From Zetaproteobacteria bacterium CG_4_9_14_3_um_filter_54_145 (lineage in GTDB: Bacteria; Pseudomonadota; Zetaproteobacteria; Mariprofundales; Mariprofundaceae), in contig PFXI01000050.1 in the NCBI GenBank assembly GCA_002791575.1, positions 1 to 53,426 on the forward strand: a DNA stretch of 53,426 nucleotides, written 5' to 3'. Below are positions 2,926 through 50,657 of this stretch, one piece after another. How positions within the stretch are numbered: position 1 is the stretch's first letter; each line of letters starts with the position of its first letter. A model generated the notes under the pieces. That model was not told the DNA's origin, ran no database searches, and was given only the letters and a program-made list of their open reading frames with translations. A program made the position numbers and the translations under genes.

Positions 2926-5574
2926 ATGGACAAGCGCACAAACAAGGCCGCAACTGATATTGATCTTGATACAACAATACCCTCCTATTATGTAGGCATT
3001 GGGGCATCCGCAGGTGGTCTGGAAGCGATCGAAGAGTTTTTCAAGCATGCGCCTACCGATACAGGCATGGGCTTTATTGTTGTTCAACATCTATCCCCGA
3101 CCCATAAGAGCTTGATGGTTGAACTGCTTTCCCGCAATACCGATATGCCGGTACTGCGTGCCGAAGATGGCATGAAGGTGAAGCCTAACTCCGTCTATCT
3201 GGTTCCACCCAATCATAATCTGAAGATTTTCCATGGCGCCCTGCTACTGGATCAGCAGGATCACGACCGCGGTTTAAACCTGCCCATTGATATCTTCTTC
3301 AAATCGCTGGCGGAAGACCAGGAGGACAAAGCCATTGCCATTGTCCTGTCGGGTACAGGCAGCGATGGTGCACGCGGTATTCGTACCATCAAAGAGAAAA
3401 TGGGCATGGTCATGGCTCAGGATGCAGACTCGGCCAAATTTGACGGTATGCCAAAAAGCGCCATTGCTACCGGCATGTGTGATTTCATTATGGCAGCTGT
3501 CGATATGCCTATGCAGTTAATGACCTTCGCCAAACACCCCTACGCCAGCCGATCCGAGCTCTCCGGCACCATTAAATCCGACGAAGACGGTTTAACCCGC
3601 ATCTTTTACCAGCTACGCGACAAAACCGGGGTAGATTTTACATTTTATAAGCCCAGTACCCTGCTGCGCCGCATTGAGCGCAGGCTGCTGGTCAATCAGT
3701 TACATTCGCTCGATGATTATGTTCATTTTATGGAGTCCAATTCAGCCGAAGTGATGACCCTGCATCGGGAGCTGCTGATCGGTGTAACCAACTTCTTTCG
3801 CGACCGCAGGGCTTTTGACCTTCTAGAAGAGACGTATCTTCCCGAACTGATTCGTCAACGCCGCGGCAGAGAGTTCCGTATCTGGGTGGCCGGTTGCTCT
3901 ACCGGCGAAGAGGCCTATTCGCTGGCAATCCTCTGTCGCGAACTGATTGAAAAGATGGGTATAGCGGTAGATGTGAAAATATTTGCCACCGATGTAGATA
4001 GAAATGCCGTTATAAAAGCGGGTAATGGTGTATTTTCAGACTCTATTGCAGCCGATATACCATCGAATCTGCTGGCAAAATATTTTTCCCATCAGGACGA
4101 CTCTTATCACATTACCCGCAACATTCGTGAAATGGTTGTCTTTGCTCAGCAGAATCTGATCAAGGATCCGCCGTTCACCAATATGGACCTGATCACCTGC
4201 CGCAACTTGCTGATCTACCTGCAGCCTGTTCTTCAGCGCAAGGTCATGGAGTTGTTTAACTTCTCCCTGAGACATGAAGGCATACTGTTTCTCGGCGCCA
4301 GCGAGACAATCGGGGATATGAGCAACTACTTTGAACCGCTACACAACAAGTGGAAACTCTATCGCTCTCGCGGCAAAAAGAATGTAGGCGCAGTCATTAC
4401 CGATCCGGTAGCCATGATGCAACGGCACGAAGCCCTTCATGAACATGCAAATTTTCCGCCCAGCATTCGCCACCATCATGTGCAGGATCACGAACGCATG
4501 CTGGAACGCCTGGTACAGTCAATCGCCGGCGACTATCTGCCGCTGGCACTGGTTGTGAATGAACAGCTTGAGCTGCAATATATTGCAGGTGATACCGATG
4601 GATTCTTCAAGCTGCCATCCGGCAAGGTACAGAACAATATTGCCACGATGGCCATCAAAGAGCTGGCGATTCCGATTTCAACAGGTATCCAGAAGGCATT
4701 CAGTAAAGAACAGGATGTGATCTACTCCAATATCAGCATCAGGCACCGGGATACCACAGTACTGTATGATATGAAGGTGAAGCTGCTACCGAAGAAACAG
4801 GGCCAGCTACCGCTTGCCGGCGTATTTCTCATCGAGAACCGCGTACTTCCCAGAATTGAAATTGGTGGGGATGCAGCTCAAACATATGACGTCAGCAAAG
4901 AAGCCCAGCAGCGCATTGTGGATCTGGAGCAGTCCCTCCAGTTTCATAAAGAGAACCTGCAGGCCACAGTGGAGGAGCTGGAAACCTCCAACGAGGAGTT
5001 ACAGGCGACCAACGAAGAGTTGATGGCCAGTAATGAAGAGCTGCAAAGTACAAATGAAGAGCTGCAATCGGTGAACGAGGAGCTTTATACGGTCAATGCC
5101 GAATACCAGAATAAAATCATTGAACTGACCGAATCAAATAACGATCTGGAGAACCTCAATGCCAGCACCCAGATTGCGACCATCTTTCTTGATGAAAACC
5201 TGAATATCAGAAAGTTCACACCGATGTTTTCACGCATCTACAAAATTATCAGCTCAGATGTGGGCAGACCGTTCAGCCACCTTTCGCACCTCCTGCTGGA
5301 TGTGAATCCCCTGAAGCTGATTGAACAGGTACTGAATAAAAACAATCATATTGAACAGGAAGTCGTCACAGATCAGGGCGACTGTTTCCTGATGCGCATA
5401 CAACCCTACCACATTGCTGCAGGCATCTTTTCAGGGGTCGTGCTCACATTTATTGATATTAATGCCTACCATGCAGAACACCGACTGTTGCAGTCTGTAC
5501 TCGATACCATGCTGGGGATGCCATTATCATCATTGATGAAGAGGGCAACATCCATCAATGTAACCCTGCAGTAA
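2926..5574 (+). CDS. CheB-CheR fusion chemotaxis-type methylesterase/methyltransferase, frameshifted near its 3' end
   Basis: Domains in order: CheB methylesterase (about 20-200) with catalytic Ser28 in GIGASAGG, His55 in VVQHLSPTH and Asp147 in GTGSDGARG; CheR methyltransferase (about 215-480) with the SAM motif [14 protein letters not shown]; a Glu/Asn-rich coiled coil (about 660-740) of repeated [10 protein letters not shown]-type heptads; then PAS domains. ATG at 2926 follows AGGGG with 7-base spacing; the longer frame starts at a TTG at 2899. The frame ends prematurely at 5574. The second PAS domain continues in frame 3 from 5517 and finally in the original frame to a TGA at 5842-5844 that overlaps the next gene. 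Such fusions feed sensory adaptation or PAS-kinase signalling. No receptor genes lie nearby. Confidence 0.9.
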
Positions 5575-5844
5575 ACACGATCTTCGGTTACACAAAAAGT
5601 GAAGTAGCAGGCAAGAATATTGAGCTGCTTATCCCCGCCGGACCCGATCGCACTCACCATAGCGGATATATCAAACATTACCTGCAGACAGGTGATGCAA
5701 AGATCATCGGCATCGGGCGCAAGGTAAAAGCATTGTGCAAGGACGGGACAATCCATAGATGTACACCTCTCGATCAGCGAAGTAAAAGAGGGCGAGCGGC
5801 GATTCTTCACTGCCGCCATGCGTCATCTGGTGGGTGGAGAATGA
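5517..5844 (+). pseudogene. Displaced C-terminal PAS segment of the CheB-CheR fusion
   Basis: Read in frame 3 from 5517, the DNA encodes a well-formed PAS core ([30 protein letters not shown]). After about 5754 the original frame resumes with DVHLSISEVKEGERRFF and ends HLVGGE at TGA 5842-5844. Two single-base changes explain this: one base missing in the GGGG run at 5514-5517 and one extra C at 5753-5754. They compensate, so the intact ancestor would be about 972 residues. The restored stop overlaps the next ATG as ATGA, which supports this as the true gene end. The cause could be sequencing error or recent mutation. Confidence 0.8.
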
Positions 5845-7940
5845 GCCCTACGGAAAATATACGCAAAGCCGGCTTACAGTTTGCTGAGCTCGAGAGAAAG
5901 GCCAAGAACCTGATCAATAGCCGTCAGGGCCCGGAGGCGGATCATAAAAGCCTGGACGGTGCGAGAGACCTGATTGAGCAACTGCAGATCTATCAGGCGG
6001 AGCTGGAGATCCAAAATGAAGAGTTGCGCGATGCGCAGCAAGCGTTGCTGACATCCCGCAACAGACTCTCCTACCTCTACCATCAGGCCCCGGTTGGTTA
6101 CATCTCGGTGGACAAGAACGGATTCATCCGTGAAGTGAATCAGCGCCTGCTTAACATGTTGGGCATGACCATGGATGCGTGCCTGAATAAACCATTGGTA
6201 AATTTTATTCTCGATAGTGACCGAGCTATCTTTTTAGGGCGTTTTCGGGCATTTTTTGATATGCCAAAAGGCAAACACATGGAGATTTGCCTGCAAAAAA
6301 GCGACAAATCGGCACTCTATGCACTGCTGGAAGGTCGACTGGCCGAGGATATGCCTGACTCAACAGCCAACGATAAAGAGTTCATGCTACTCACGATTAG
6401 CGATATAACTGCCCGCAGGGATGCCGAGGCCAATCTGCGGCTAGCAGACAAAATCATCCATACTGCGCAGGAAGCGATTTTAGTTACCGATGCACAGGGT
6501 ACGATTCTGAATGTAAACCCGTGCTTTGAGAAAACCACCGGTTATACTAAAGATGAAATTATCGGAAAAAATCCGCGGATACTTCAATCCGGACGTCAGA
6601 ACAGCTTGTTTTATAATGTCATGTGGAAGCAGGTGCTCAACACCGGCTGTTGGCAGGGCATAGTCTGGAATAGACGCAGGAATGGTGAAGAGTATGCAGA
6701 AAAGCTGACGATCAATGCAATTTATGGTGATCGCAAGGAAGTAACCCACTATGTGGGTGTATTTACCGATATCACCGATCAACTCGAGCTGGAAGAGAAA
6801 CTGCGCCAATCGCAGAAAATGGAAGCAATCGGCACGCTGGTAGGTGGCATTGCCCATGACTTCAATAACATGCTGGCCGGTATTGTTGGCAACCTCTATC
6901 TGGCAAAGAAAAAGTCGGATAAGCAGGCCGAACTCATTCCCCATCTGGAAGTTATCGGCACCTTAAGTGACAAAGCTGCTGAAATGATTGCACAAATGCT
7001 TACATTCGCGCGCAAAGGCATCGTTCAAATGAAGCCGCTCGCCCTGAATCACTGTATTAATGAGATTCTGACCGGCGCTGGCTGGGTAAGCATCCCTGAG
7101 AACATCCGACTGAATATCAATCTTTGCGAGGAAGATCTGGTCATTAAAGCGGATCAAACGCAGATACAGCAGCTGGTGATCAATCTGTTAAGCAACGCCC
7201 GCGATGCACTGGCAGGTCAAAGCCAGCCGGCCATAGAGACACATCTGACCAGATACTGCCCTGACAAATTCTTCCTGTTAGAGCACGATCTTGCCAATGG
7301 TGTGGAATTTGCCCATTTAACAATATCGGATAATGGCTGCGGCATCGATAGCGAACAATATGCACGCATTTTCGAACCGTTCTACACAACAAAAGAGGCG
7401 GGCAAAGGCACCGGTCTGGGTCTGGCCATGGTGTACGGGGCCGTGCAAACCCATGGCGGCGTTATTCAGGTAGAAAGCATTCAGGGAGGAGGAACCAGCT
7501 TCCATCTGTACCTACCTTTAATTGATATGGTTCTGAATGATAACAGGGATGCTCCTCTTCAGATGGCTGCGGGCAAGGGTGAAATCATTCTTGTGGCAGA
7601 TGACGATGCTGTTGTGCTTGATGTAACAACTGAAATTTTAGCCAACCACGGTTATCGCATTCTACAGGCTGATGACGGCCGCAATGCATGGAATCTGTTT
7701 GAATCCCATTTTGCCGAAATTGATCTTGTCATACTGGATATCATTATGCCAAACATGAATGGCGATGAGGTCGCTGAAAAGGTTCGTCAACTGCGCCCCG
7801 ACATCCCGATCATCTTTGCTACAGGCTATGACAGACAGCACGTGTTGTCGGGCGATAACGAACTGGAAAACAGCACGGTTCTCAACAAGCCCTTCCAGTA
7901 CGATCATCTGAGTCATCTGATGAGAACACTGCTGGATTAG
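5841..7940 (+). CDS. Cytoplasmic hybrid histidine kinase (PAS-PAS-HisKA-HATPase-REC)
   Basis: A 699-residue soluble kinase: N-terminal coiled coil (about 40-75, [15 protein letters not shown]), PAS (about 75-195), PAS with PAC (about 205-320), HisKA with phospho-acceptor His339 in [11 protein letters not shown], a HATPase domain with DNGCGI and GTGLGL boxes, and a C-terminal receiver with acidic DDD and phospho-acceptor Asp in LVILDIIMP. The start ATG at 5841 overlaps the restored stop of the CheB-CheR fusion (ATGA) and follows GGTGGAG; a longer frame from 5733 only reads back into the displaced PAS segment. The pair probably forms one signalling pathway. The stop overlaps the convergent aat stop. 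A close paralogue lies at 9104-11113. Confidence 0.92.
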
Positions 7941-43683: not shown

Positions 43684-44061
43684 TCAGGTATGCAGCAGTG
43701 CTGCAGCCACCTGCTCCGGGAAACTGCGCGTATCAACCGGTTTGGCTATATAGCCTGTAAAACCCCGCTCCAGAATCTTCTCCCTGTCGCCGCCCATGGC
43801 ATGTGCCGTTAACGCGATGACAGGGATCTCGATCGCCATAGCCTTGAGTTGCGCCAGTACCTGATAACCGTCCATATCCGGCATCTGGATATCCAGCAGG
43901 ATCAGGTCCGGCAGTGCATCCGCCATACGCGCAAGAAATGGTTCGCCAGTTGTATCGGTAGTGACCTGTGCGCCATGCGCTTCCAGTAGTGCTGAAAACA
44001 GCATCAGAATCGTGTCGTTATCATCCAGCACAGCAATTTTCTTACCTGATAGAAGGCTCAT
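43684..44061 (-). CDS. Single-domain response regulator
   Basis: A 125-residue CheY-like receiver: acidic pair in VLDDNDTIL, acceptor Asp in LILLDIQMPDMDGYQ, switch Thr in IALTAHA and Lys in YIAKPVD. Its sequence style (MGGDREKILERGFTGYIAKP) is that of receivers attached to hybrid kinases. ATG 44061 overlaps the stop of the giant hybrid kinase as ATGA, so it is almost certainly made with it. It has no output domain. Confidence 0.93.
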   Translation of the reverse strand: MSLLSGKKIAVLDDNDTILMLFSALLEAHGAQVTTDTTGEPFLARMADALPDLILLDIQMPDMDGYQVLAQLKAMAIEIPVIALTAHAMGGDREKILERGFTGYIAKPVDTRSFPEQVAAALLHT

Positions 44062-47000
44062 ATAATGATCAGGCCCCCGTTTTTCTCATACGCCAGTTTA
44101 TTTTTTCCGGCCGCTTTGGCTTTACCGATACGGGCGTGGCATGTGGTAATCAACTTCTCAGGTGTATCGCCATCTTCAGGATAAAGTGCAATCGCAGCAC
44201 ACGTGGTCAGACCTGGCTTATCCAGCCCCTCTTCACCCGGAAATGGGTAAGCCTCAATCATATTTTTCAGACGGTTCACCACCAGCAGTGCCCCTTCGAG
44301 CTCCGTGTGGGTTAGAATCATGGCAAATTCGTCCACCCGGTGACGGGTGGCAATGTCCGAGCCTCTGAGGTTATTCATCAGAAAGCTGCCTACCTTGCGC
44401 AGTGCAGCATGCACATACGCCTCACCGGCCACCTCGCTGAAGCGGGCAAAACCGTCCAGATCAAACACGACACAGGCCATCTTCTCGCTGTTGCGGCTTG
44501 CACGCGAGATCTCCTGGTCCAGACGAATCTGGTAATAACGGTGGTTGAGCAGGCCAGAGATATTATCTTTCAATCCCGCCTGATGCGGATAAATACTCTC
44601 GACATGACGGATCTCATCCAACAGCTGTTCGCGGGTAAAGGACTCCTTGCTGACACAGTCCTCAATATGCCCCATCAGGCGCACACGCTCTGCCACTGCC
44701 AGCTCCTTGGCGGTAACAACAATAATAGGAATGTTCTCTGTGCGGGGCTGCTGCTTCAGTCGCTCGGCCACCTCGAACCCGTCCATACCGGGCATCATCA
44801 GATCAAGGATAATGATGTCCGGCTCGACTGTTTCAGCCAGATGAATTCCCTCCGCCCCACTGCTCGCCGTATGCACCCGGTAACCCTGAGCTGTAAGCGT
44901 GGCCATATAGAGCTCTCGAATATTCTCTTCATCATCAATAGCCAGCACATGCATAGTCCTGTTCTTGCGATGAATCCCTTTGCTTAATGCCCCCAGTTTG
45001 GATGCGAGCAGCTCGCGATTGATAGGCTTGGCCAGATAATCGGTGGCACCGAGCGCGATACAGAGCTCCTCATTCTCGGAAACGGTACACATGATCACCG
45101 GTATATCCGCTGTCTCCGCATCCAGCTTGAGCTCCTGCAGGACCTCCCACCCATCCTTACCCGGCATCATCACATCCAGCAGAATCAGGAACGGACGTTT
45201 CTTGCGCACAAGCAGCAGTGCATCTTCGCCATTCATGGCATGACAGACCCTGTAACCCGCATTGGAGAGATAAAGGGTACTGATCTCCAGCGAGTGAGCA
45301 TCATCATCAACGACCATAATTAACGGTGCATCCGGAGCAACCGGAAGCGGCTTGTTATGAATCTGCTGCAGCACTACTTGTGTATCGACTGCCGGCAGGT
45401 TTGGTAGAACTGGGGGCTTTTGAATGAGCTCGACCGGCAACGTGAAGACAAAGCAGCTGCCTTCTCCGGGCGCACTCTGTACGGCTATCGAGCCGCCGTG
45501 CATTTCAATCAGCTTCTGGGTCAGCGTCAGCCCCAGTCCTGTTCCTTCATAATTGCGCGAGTGCGATCCGTCGGCCTGTTCAAACGGACTGAAAATATTC
45601 GCCTGATCTTGCGGGGAGATACCGATCCCCTGATCATGAATGGCGACAGTGAGTCTTGCATAGCTCTCCTGCCTGTCATCTGTACCATTGTTGTAATCAA
45701 CAACGATTCTGACCTCACCGCCCTGAGGGCTGAACTTGATCGCATTCGAACAGAGATTGTAGAGAATCTGTTTAAATTTTGTGCGATCCAGATGAATCCC
45801 CGGAATGGCAGCATCTACCTCCAGACTCAGCCGAACACTGGTCTTTGTCGCGTACCCCTCTAACACCAACTGGATCTCATCGAGCAGATCAGCGACATTA
45901 ATCTTCTCAAGTTTAAGGCTCATTTTGCCGGCCTCAATCTTGGCCAGATCGAGAATACCGTTAATAAGCTCGAGTAGATGTTTCCCTGAGATATTGATAT
46001 TCTTCAGATACTTGGTCTGGGTTTCATTCAATGGCCCGACATAACCGTCAATCAGAAATTCGGAAAAACCATTGATTGAGGTCAGCGGCGTACGCAACTC
46101 GTGCGACATATTGCTGATAAACTGGGATTTGGCCTGATTTGCACGAATCAATGCCTCGTTGGTAGAGGTCAGATCGATCGTACGTTCCATGATCCGCGCT
46201 TCCAGATGTGCATTTAACGATTTCAGCTCGGCCTTTTCCTGTTCTATGACGTGGAACAAGCGGGCCTTCTGGATGGCATGTGCAGCCTGATTGGCCAGTA
46301 GATCGAGAAAGCGCAGCTGATTCTCATCGTAATCACGCGGAGAAAAATCATTCACATAGAGTATACCGACAACTTCACTACCCAGGGCCAGTGGCACGGC
46401 AACCAGTGCCTGTACCCCTTCATCGGTCAACATGGCATTGAGCGTAATCACCTTGGATGCAACCACGTCCGCTACGACAAACGGTTTTTGATCGTTAAAT
46501 ATGCGCTCTGTCAGCCCGCCTTCCCTGACTATCCATGGTTCCTGTCGATCAAACGATGTGGAGAAACCGGCTGATGCGTAGAGCGAAAGAGATCGCGTCT
46601 CCTTGTCATAGAGAGAAACCGTGCCTGCCGGTGATCCGGTTACCAGCATCGCTTCCTGCAGTACCAGCCTAAGCATTCTTGAGAGACTGTCGCTGGTGTT
46701 AAGCTGACGCCCAACACGATCAAGCTTCTCGAACTCGCTCAGCATCTGCTCAATCTGATCTTTTTCCCTTTTACGTTTGCACATCTGGTCGTAGAAGAAG
46801 CGGGCGGCCTTCCCCTCCATAATCTCTACATCCGATGATAAACAGAGGCGCAAACGTTCTGAAACATCACTGGAACCGGTTACATTGATCGCCATATCAC
46901 AGGCTGGGATTTCTTCAATGGTATGAAAGATCGGAATCGACAGTATCCCGGCCCGCTTCAGTGCCGGCGCATCCACGCGCGAATCGACAATAGCGACAAT

Positions 47001-47093
47001 GTTGATATCACTATCTTCCTGCAGTACCTGCAACAGGGCTTCGCCTCCGCGTCCCGCTCCAATAACAACAATCCTGAACAGATCCCCCCCCAT
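44058..47093 (-). CDS. Rossmann-GAF hybrid histidine kinase with two receivers and a degenerate GGDEF domain
   Basis: A 1011-residue cytoplasmic protein. Domains: Rossmann-type nucleotide-binding region (about 1-105) with GAGRGG at 12-17 and an AIVDSR acidic strand end; coiled coil; GAF (about 130-280); HisKA with His331 in SNMSHELRTPL; HATPase with HDQGIGI and GTGLGLTL; REC1 (about 580-700, Asp in ILLDVMMPGKDG); REC2 (about 705-825, Asp in IILDLMMPGMDG); GGDEF-like domain (about 840-1005) with the signature degraded to RVDEF. The ATG at 47093 shares one base with the preceding stop (TGATG) and follows AAGG; the frame starting at 47129 lies inside the previous gene. The cyclase is probably inactive. 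Sensing of a dinucleotide by the Rossmann part is an inference. Confidence 0.9.
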   Translation of the reverse strand: MGGDLFRIVVIGAGRGGEALLQVLQEDSDINIVAIVDSRVDAPALKRAGILSIPIFHTIEEIPACDMAINVTGSSDVSERLRLCLSSDVEIMEGKAARFFYDQMCKRKREKDQIEQMLSEFEKLDRVGRQLNTSDSLSRMLRLVLQEAMLVTGSPAGTVSLYDKETRSLSLYASAGFSTSFDRQEPWIVREGGLTERIFNDQKPFVVADVVASKVITLNAMLTDEGVQALVAVPLALGSEVVGILYVNDFSPRDYDENQLRFLDLLANQAAHAIQKARLFHVIEQEKAELKSLNAHLEARIMERTIDLTSTNEALIRANQAKSQFISNMSHELRTPLTSINGFSEFLIDGYVGPLNETQTKYLKNINISGKHLLELINGILDLAKIEAGKMSLKLEKINVADLLDEIQLVLEGYATKTSVRLSLEVDAAIPGIHLDRTKFKQILYNLCSNAIKFSPQGGEVRIVVDYNNGTDDRQESYARLTVAIHDQGIGISPQDQANIFSPFEQADGSHSRNYEGTGLGLTLTQKLIEMHGGSIAVQSAPGEGSCFVFTLPVELIQKPPVLPNLPAVDTQVVLQQIHNKPLPVAPDAPLIMVVDDDAHSLEISTLYLSNAGYRVCHAMNGEDALLLVRKKRPFLILLDVMMPGKDGWEVLQELKLDAETADIPVIMCTVSENEELCIALGATDYLAKPINRELLASKLGALSKGIHRKNRTMHVLAIDDEENIRELYMATLTAQGYRVHTASSGAEGIHLAETVEPDIIILDLMMPGMDGFEVAERLKQQPRTENIPIIVVTAKELAVAERVRLMGHIEDCVSKESFTREQLLDEIRHVESIYPHQAGLKDNISGLLNHRYYQIRLDQEISRASRNSEKMACVVFDLDGFARFSEVAGEAYVHAALRKVGSFLMNNLRGSDIATRHRVDEFAMILTHTELEGALLVVNRLKNMIEAYPFPGEEGLDKPGLTTCAAIALYPEDGDTPEKLITTCHARIGKAKAAGKNKLAYEKNGGLIII

Positions 47094-47458
47094 CAGGCTA
47101 CCTTTGCGGGCAGGTACTGTTTTACACACCGCAGAATGTGGGGGATATCAAACGGCTTGCTGATATAATCCGTGGCACCGTTGGCAATCGCCCTGTCGCG
47201 CTCATCCTCTTCCGGCAGAGCACTGACCAATACGATGGGCAGATCCTGACCGTAGCGTTCACGCAGCTTTTCCAGCACCTGATAACCGGTCATGCCCGGC
47301 ATGGTAATATCCATCAGCACCAGTTCCGGGCATACATGTTCCGTCAGTGCCAGTGCCTTGATACCATCTGCAGCATCGCAGACCGTGTAATTGGCGCTTT
47401 CCAGCACAGCAACCTGCATCTCCCGAACGATGTCATTGTCATCAACAACAAGTATCAT
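47093..47458 (-). CDS. Single-domain response regulator, first gene of the kinase operon
   Basis: A 121-residue receiver: acidic pair in VVDDNDIVRE, acceptor Asp in LVLMDITMPGMTGYQ, and Lys in YISKPFD. ATG 47458 follows GGGAGAGG; a TTG four codons upstream would extend it. It starts the three-gene unit receiver - giant kinase - receiver. Having receivers on both sides suggests a phosphorelay with more than one output, perhaps with the kinase's own REC domains as intermediates. Confidence 0.92.
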   Translation of the reverse strand: MILVVDDNDIVREMQVAVLESANYTVCDAADGIKALALTEHVCPELVLMDITMPGMTGYQVLEKLRERYGQDLPIVLVSALPEEDERDRAIANGATDYISKPFDIPHILRCVKQYLPAKVA

Positions 47459-49036: not shown

Positions 49037-49254
49037 AGCCTCCTGGGAACAAGACAGAGAGTCAGACTTCAGGCACCCATGAACGTCAGAAAGACACCAA
49101 TGTGTCAGAACGGCAGCATTTTCCCCGTCAAACAAGCCGGGGCACACGACTGCCCACAGCGACAGATATGTTTAAAAATATAGACAAATCAAGCCACACA
49201 GTTGTGCTCACGATTCTGGCACCATATATGCTCTAACATCAGTACATAGCTCGT

Positions 49255-49414
49255 TGTAGTGACATTGTGGTTTATAATTCTGGGCCGATGCGTACTGAAC
49301 GGGAGCTTGTCTATCGCGGTTGTGTGAATCCCTTTATGGGGATACCTGATATCGGGATGCGGCACCCACCTTAACGTTAAGGGTTCAGTCATTGTAAGCC
49401 ATAATGTCAGTGCA
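49255..49414 (+). ncRNA. ssrS: 6S RNA
   Basis: 6S RNA binds sigma70 RNA polymerase in stationary phase by mimicking an open promoter. Here GACATTGTGGTTTATAAT (49261-49278) pairs along its full 18 bases with ATTGTAAGCCATAATGTC (49391-49408) as the terminal stem, with only G-U wobbles. Inside lie ACTGAAC/GTTCAGT, the CGCGGTT segment, and CACCCACCTTAACGTTAAGGGTTCA, which closely follows the conserved CACCTTGAACCAAGGGTTCA region of enterobacterial 6S RNA. Ends are approximate. The TATAAT at 49273 is part of the stem, not a promoter. A hairpin terminator follows. Confidence 0.8.
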
Positions 49415-49429
49415 ACGATCATTCACGAG

Positions 49430-49559: not shown

Positions 49560-49736
49560 ATGTTCATCAAAATCGACAAAAAGACGCTGGAAGAGGAGAT
49601 CATCAATAGTGAAGAGATGGTTGAAGTACTCGAGCATGATATGAAACCTGTATTTGTCGATGATGCCTTGATGGATATGGTCACCAGTGGTTACGTCCAC
49701 AGAAGTGCATCCGCCATATACAGGTATAAGGCCTGA
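49560..49736 (+). CDS. Small acidic protein of unknown function, upstream of the globin gene
   Basis: A 58-residue protein: an acidic helical half (KIDKKTLEEEIINSEEMVEVLEH, in part) followed by a segment ending in SGYVHRSASAIYRYKA. It is preceded by AAAGGAGAG with good spacing to ATG 49560; the longer frame to 49542 adds six residues without a site. No known family is recognised. It lies 9 bases before the two-globin gene and is probably cotranscribed. A partner or regulator role is possible but unsupported. Confidence 0.65.
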   Translation: MFIKIDKKTLEEEIINSEEMVEVLEHDMKPVFVDDALMDMVTSGYVHRSASAIYRYKA

Positions 49737-49745
49737 GTTTTTCGC

Positions 49746-50657
49746 ATGCATAACAACGTGCCGGCTCTGCACAGGCAGCGAAAACTGGTTCACGATTCGA
49801 TTGAGTCCATGCAAAGAGAGGGTGAAAGCATGCATGCGCTTAGCTCGAAATTCTACACCCGACTCCTCCAGACCGATCCGACGCTGGGTGATATATTTGA
49901 TGGCAGCCCCGTCACCCTGAATCGAAAATTCAGTAATATGATTGCTACCTTCAAAAATCTCAAACACCTTGAAATGATTACACCGGCTATTGAAAGCCTG
50001 TCCAAACGCCACCTTGCCTACGGCATGCAACCAGCACACCTGGACAGCTTTAAAGCGGCACTGATATTCGCGCTGGAAAAGCAACTGAGAGATCGGTTTA
50101 CTGATGAGCTGAAGCAGGCATGGAACAACTGCTATGATGACGTGGCCGTCGTCATTCGCCGGGCAGCCAAGGCCCACCCCGAGCTATTCCGGGCCGCCAG
50201 CCCCAAACAGCATACGCACTACGATATGAATCTGCTTGCCGATATCGGCGGTGCCGACGTTGTAAAACAGGTACTGGCACGTTTTTATGGCATCATCTTT
50301 GCAGATGCATGGCTCGGCCAGTTCTTCTACGGCAAAAGCAAGACCGGCCTGACCAATAAACAGAGCAAATTTATGGTCGCGGCATTCGGAGGCCCCAACA
50401 CATATGAGGGCGAGCCACCGGCGCTGTCGCATATGCATATGTATATTACCGAAGAGATATCCCTCCTGCGCGAGAAAATGCTGCGCCAGGCAATTAGCGA
50501 TCAGGGGTTAGGGATCGATATTGCCGAGCGATGGCTGAGCGTCGATCGCTCATTCTGGCATTCGATTCACAAACAGTCGGTGGATGAGTGTGTGACCAAA
50601 TGTTTCGGCCAGGCTCCCGTCGTTGTAAAAAAACCGGAAAACTATCAGCCGCAGTGA
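49746..50657 (+). CDS. Two-globin fusion protein (single-domain globin plus truncated haemoglobin)
   Basis: A 303-residue soluble protein. The N-terminal half (about 10-150) is globin-like, with the proximal-His region LSKRHLAYGMQPAHLDSF (His89) and LKQAWNNCYDDVAVVI matching the F-G-H helices of bacterial globins. The C-terminal half (about 165-290) fits a truncated haemoglobin: DIGGADVVKQVLARFYGIIF, FGGPNTYEGEPPALSHMHM (His229 as likely proximal ligand, His231 nearby), and ERWLSVDRSFW. Fusions of these two globin classes are unusual. The likely roles are oxygen or NO binding or sensing, with no reductase domain attached. Starts at ATG 49746 with a weak Shine-Dalgarno, probably coupled to the small gene upstream. 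Confidence 0.8.
   Translation: MHNNVPALHRQRKLVHDSIESMQREGESMHALSSKFYTRLLQTDPTLGDIFDGSPVTLNRKFSNMIATFKNLKHLEMITPAIESLSKRHLAYGMQPAHLDSFKAALIFALEKQLRDRFTDELKQAWNNCYDDVAVVIRRAAKAHPELFRAASPKQHTHYDMNLLADIGGADVVKQVLARFYGIIFADAWLGQFFYGKSKTGLTNKQSKFMVAAFGGPNTYEGEPPALSHMHMYITEEISLLREKMLRQAISDQGLGIDIAERWLSVDRSFWHSIHKQSVDECVTKCFGQAPVVVKKPENYQPQ

Follow-up and report, generated by a model that had tools for sequence, protein, structure and literature searches.

A globin fold alone is a poor ground for assigning O2 or NO handling to a protein. HGbRL of Methylacidiphilum infernorum, which combines an HGbI-like globin and a Roadblock/LC7 domain in one chain, has been described as a putative globin-coupled sensor; the Methylacidiphilum genome also holds an MglB-MglA-like pair at a site other than that of HGbRL (PMC4476040). 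In the literature searched, this protein is the only one for which a globin has been proposed to feed a Roadblock/small-GTPase system, and globins go unmentioned in the 2014 survey of prokaryotic small GTPases (PMC4316618). Composite haem proteins of another kind, the lPHCtX cytochrome-truncated haemoglobin fusions, occur in cable bacteria (PMC11976967).

The window, i.e. the whole stretch of 53,426 nucleotides analysed here, is contig C60 of the 2.85-Mb genome (G000) of a marine iron oxidiser. It carries a gene which a preliminary description had read as one chain joining a bacterial single-domain globin to a truncated haemoglobin (trHb), without reductase or sensor domain, and as a rare mixed fusion possibly involved in O2 or NO handling. 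Judged by the genes around its homologues, signalling together with a Roadblock/small-GTPase system is better indicated than O2/NO handling. The features of the locus are the following.

49560..49736 (+): small gene of 58 aa, conserved in 21/74 family genomes, ending just upstream of the fusion.
49746..50657 (+): SDgb-trHb fusion gene, 303 aa, with an ATG start and without internal stop.
49758..50180 (+): N-terminal 3/3 single-domain globin, HGbI-like, about residues 5-145, from Pfam, PDB search, model, Foldseek and alignment.
50010..50012 (+): codon of His89, predicted proximal F8 of the first globin, conserved in 23/23.
50181..50228 (+): linker, about residues 146-161, a low-confidence stretch of the AlphaFold2 model.
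50229..50570 (+): C-terminal truncated haemoglobin, group 1-like, about residues 162-275, from Pfam, PDB search, Foldseek and alignment.
50430..50432 (+): codon of His229, predicted proximal F8 of the second globin, present in every fusion and stand-alone relative compared.
50571..50654 (+): conserved C-terminal tail DECVxxCxGQxPxxxKKP with Cys282, from the homologue alignment.

The presence of two globin classes in one chain is borne out by Pfam, PDB search, AlphaFold2 and Foldseek alike. Globin (PF00042) matches residues 62-135 (E 2e-11, 44.8 bits, cut-off 22) and Bac_globin (PF01152) residues 165-254 (E 4.5e-14, 53.1 bits, cut-off 21). In the PDB sequence search, HGbI (Hell's Gate globin I) is the closest solved relative of the N half (E 6.4e-11), and the C half matches Paramecium trHb (E 3.9e-10) and M. 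tuberculosis HbN (E 1.2e-8). Structure prediction, which had been suggested as a check, folds both halves as globins: the AlphaFold2 model, built with 23 homologues as input, contains two separate helical globin folds (mean pLDDT 86), the relative placement of which is uncertain given a pTM of only 0.61, and its Foldseek matches include 1dlw (target TM 0.93) and HGbI 3s1i (target TM 0.84). The N half has the 3/3 fold, His F8 and Phe CD1 of single-domain (F-type) bacterial globins, and the C half has the PF01152 match, His F8, Tyr B10, Gln E11 and Phe CD1 of group 1 truncated haemoglobins. The chain consists of these two domains only, as previously stated: Pfam found no FAD/NAD reductase domain, which would define a flavohaemoglobin, and neither Pfam nor the model contains the covalent transducer of a globin-coupled sensor. 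Each half belongs to a known globin class, and the mixed architecture is undescribed in the literature searched, where no 3/3-2/2 bacterial globin fusion was found; many subscription papers lie outside that coverage, and absence is unproven.

Helix positions were assigned by alignment to HGbI, VHb and HbN. Across the 23 full-length homologues, the first half has invariant Lys61 (E10), Phe62 (E11), His89 (F8) and Trp126, together with Phe51 at CD1 (22/23), and the second half has invariant Tyr181 (B10), Gln206 (E11), His229 (F8), Arg242, Arg262, Trp263 and Cys282. In the window protein, E7 is Leu in both halves (Leu202 in the second). The C-terminal tail, in which the invariant Cys282 is located, has CxxxC in 15 of the 23. 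The invariance of His89 agrees with its earlier designation as a plausible proximal ligand. For the second half, either His229 or His231 had been put forward; the former is retained in 23/23 fusions and in 28/28 stand-alone relatives of the C half, and the latter was rejected because 22 of those 28 relatives have Arg at position 231. Both haem pockets are apparently intact, and the fusion would be expected to bind haem. The possibility that the first half is a flavohaemoglobin remnant was rejected, since the residue pair Tyr(G5)/Glu(H23) is missing: in the alignment, flavohaemoglobin-type Glu(H23) occurs in 0/23 and Tyr(G5) in 2/23 homologues.

The family and phylum, GTDB contigs and, at a later stage, one gammaproteobacterial order were scanned, which yielded 23 distinct full-length homologues including that of the window. 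A search for the same architecture, as had been advised, thus retrieved 22 further full-length proteins with 38-52% overall identity, so the fusion is neither an assembly artefact nor a chance join. With five later loci, one of them partial, the fusion loci number 28. By record name, the hosts fall into Mariprofundaceae (Zetaproteobacteria) and Ghiorsea, the Methylococcales (Methyloprofundus among them), the Thiotrichales (including Thiomargarita and Venteria) and further Gammaproteobacteria; most belong to iron-oxidising, methanotrophic or sulfur-cycling lineages. The architecture is indeed uncommon, being present in 14/74 genomes of the family Mariprofundaceae (one copy cut by a contig end) and, within one gammaproteobacterial order, in 6 of a sample of 201 genomes (one copy partial). 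In a tree with 30 stand-alone trHbs, the C halves form one clade (100/99.6), which led to the rejection of independent fusions, and L021, L022 and L023 share a branch with the window protein (99/91); the main groups recur in the N-half tree, where fewer branches are well supported. The C-half clade and the matching N-half groups indicate a single, old fusion event, most likely passed on as a unit.

An all-against-all comparison of the flanks revealed recurrent families beside the fusion, namely Roadblock/LC7 proteins, a Ras/Arf-type GTPase, an ABC1 kinase, a calcineurin-like phosphoesterase and unknowns. Pfam assigns the Roadblock family (PF03259) and the Ras/Arf-type GTPase; against the PDB, the Roadblock profiles match MglB (E 4e-5) and CvnB5 (E 3e-12), the MglC-like profile matches MglC weakly (E 0.001), and the GTPase profile matches SEC4 (E 3e-14) and MglA (E 1e-11). 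This cassette, found in homologues and in the window genome, therefore comprises a Ras-like GTPase with a nearby Roadblock/LC7 partner, as in MglA/MglB-type systems. A DUF2621-like match of one cassette protein fell below the cut-off and was ignored. Cassette genes lie at most about 10 kb from the fusion in 12/28 loci (L022, L023, L028, L029, L030, L031, L032, L036, L076, L078, L081 and L128). MglA-like GTPase and/or MglB/MglC-like Roadblock genes are found within about 10 kb in 11/28, and in L128 the phosphoesterase is the only cassette gene near the fusion. In L022 and L023, which belong to the branch of the window protein, a Roadblock gene ends directly upstream of the fusion. The remaining 16 loci, including the window, have no nearby cassette gene, and several are on short contigs. 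As a control, the surroundings of eight stand-alone trHbs related to the C half, in most cases several kb of flank, held no cassette gene. As a separate observation, an NAD-dependent epimerase/dehydratase-like gene lies downstream of the fusion in L031 (at 8879) and L034 (at 7678), overlapping its end by 4 nt; in L034, this gene is itself fused to a MoxR-type AAA ATPase.

Fusion and cassette are associated by co-occurrence as well as by neighbourhood. The GTPase is present in 13/14 fusion genomes of the family against 23/60 fusion-less ones (Fisher p 2e-4) and, outside the window's genus, in 12/13 against 9/38 (p 2e-5), p-values which are indicative only and overstate independence because the genomes share ancestry. 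A similar GTPase is encoded in 9/9 gammaproteobacterial fusion genomes tested, a count covering fusion-bearing genomes only.

In the window, the fusion stands alone behind the 58-aa gene and a 6S (SsrS) RNA-like locus at 49248-49422 (+), a full-length match of 34.5 bits, under the Rfam gathering score of 46.4, which is followed by a terminator-like hairpin. Farther upstream, 44058-47129 (-) encodes a hybrid histidine kinase in which a DapB-like Rossmann domain at the N-terminus is combined with GAF and GGDEF domains and two receivers. The 58-aa gene had been suggested as a partner of the globin, an idea that does not hold up: in the fusion-bearing genomes G263, G230 and G023, it is on a different contig from the fusion, and, being elsewhere unlinked to the globin, it is probably not part of the globin system. 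It was also considered as a remnant of the Roadblock gene which occupies that place in L022 and L023, and this was rejected for want of convincing similarity; a weak exonuclease/S30 match was below the cut-off and ignored.

The window genome has its cassette on another contig, C54 (L090 5940-9700), where the Roadblock, phosphoesterase and GTPase genes are accompanied by those for a protoglobin (PF11563, E 8e-21) and for a di-iron protein of the ODP type (PF19583, E 8e-73). As fusion and cassette are not adjacent there, their link in this genome rests on the homologues. Within the window's genus, an ODP lies less than 5 kb from the GTPase in 8 genomes and protoglobins do so in 3; L133, like L090, has an ODP and one or two protoglobins inside the MglA/B/C-like Roadblock/GTPase cassette. 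Both families are established O2 binders, so that O2-binding proteins of unrelated folds recur in the cassette.

These data give about an even chance that the fusion is a gas-sensing input (O2 or NO) to the Roadblock/GTPase switch, a reading based on the Rosetta-stone logic of HGbRL, the linkage, the co-occurrence and the parallel ODP/protoglobin inputs. The fusion would be a soluble two-haem sensor with one haem b per half, in which O2 (or NO) at one or both haems would change the conformation of the globin pair. The change would be relayed in trans to the MglB/MglC-like Roadblock/LC7 proteins, presumably by physical contact, and these would then set the nucleotide state of the MglA-like small GTPase, and through it perhaps cell polarity, behaviour on surfaces or some other output of a host that must keep its position in an O2 gradient. 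We infer the ligand, the contact with the Roadblock proteins and the output alike.

In the main rival explanation, unlikely yet a serious contender, the fusion would act as an NO dioxygenase or O2-reducing enzyme with two haems, supplied with electrons by a ferredoxin/FAD/NAD reductase that is a separate protein. Without exception, the second half carries the distal residues Tyr B10 and Gln E11 as in HbN, a pair which suits NO dioxygenation too and counts against the sensor, as does L028, where the fusion is directly followed by a gene (4831-6432) for a 533-aa chain of 2Fe-2S ferredoxin, FAD/NAD reductase and another trHb. However, L028 is the only annotated locus in which a reductase adjoins the fusion. 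The enzyme reading is also favoured by a reductase of this kind in the window genome, where it adjoins a pair of trHb genes (L132 1187-3113, contig C26), an arrangement shared by many family genomes and likely a dedicated globin reductase operon of Mariprofundaceae. Against that reading, the reductase pairs with other trHbs within the family. The lack of flavohaemoglobin-type Glu(H23) in 23/23 and Tyr(G5) in 21/23 first halves likewise speaks against the enzyme and was counted for the sensor.

A purely incidental linkage, in which both elements would be accessory genes that gather in variable regions common to related genomes and the globin would act alone, appears improbable. The 16/28 unlinked loci and the shared ancestry of the genomes, several linked loci being close relatives (Ghiorsea group), weigh in its favour and against the sensor, but distant branches are linked too (Methylococcales L028, L128 by the phosphoesterase alone, and L076 from another family), fusion and GTPase co-occur even when unlinked, and other O2-binding proteins sit in the same cassette. 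Least probable of all is an O2 buffer or carrier protecting or feeding microaerophilic metabolism, without enzymatic or signalling activity: it is in keeping with the lifestyles of most named hosts and with the proposal that globins control intracellular O2 in iron oxidisers (PMC3770913), but it leaves the repeated Roadblock/GTPase linkage unexplained, and many family members carry other trHbs only.

The sensor reading, if true, would add a new input class for bacterial Ras-like switches and explain, in a form open to testing, the way in which iron oxidisers living in gradients sense O2. By tentative extension, microaerophilic iron oxidisers and methanotrophs might possess an MglA/B/C-like switch for which the two-globin fusion, protoglobin and di-iron ODP serve as interchangeable O2-binding inputs, so that O2 or NO would be coupled directly to cell polarity or surface behaviour, replacing a two-component or chemoreceptor route.

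Among known systems, HGbRL likewise ties a related HGbI-like 3/3 globin to a Roadblock domain without reductase, but it has one globin with the Roadblock domain in the same chain, whereas the present protein has a trHb as its second domain, with the Roadblock proteins encoded by genes of their own. The N half shares the fold, F8 His and E10 Lys of HGbI and Vitreoscilla haemoglobin, and differs in its E7 Leu, E11 Phe, missing Glu(H23) and fusion to a trHb. The C half has the 2/2 fold, Tyr B10, Gln E11 and His F8 of group 1 trHbs such as M. tuberculosis HbN and Paramecium trHb, from which it is set apart by the extended conserved tail with invariant Cys282 and by its junction to a 3/3 globin. 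As in lPHCtX, a trHb domain is joined to another haem protein, but the partner in lPHCtX is a periplasmic multihaem cytochrome and not a second globin class. Lastly, the cassette resembles the MglA/MglB/MglC polarity system and the actinobacterial conservons (Cvn) in combining a small GTPase with MglB-/MglC-like Roadblock proteins, and departs from them in its globin and ODP as apparent inputs, its ABC1 kinase and its calcineurin-like phosphoesterase.
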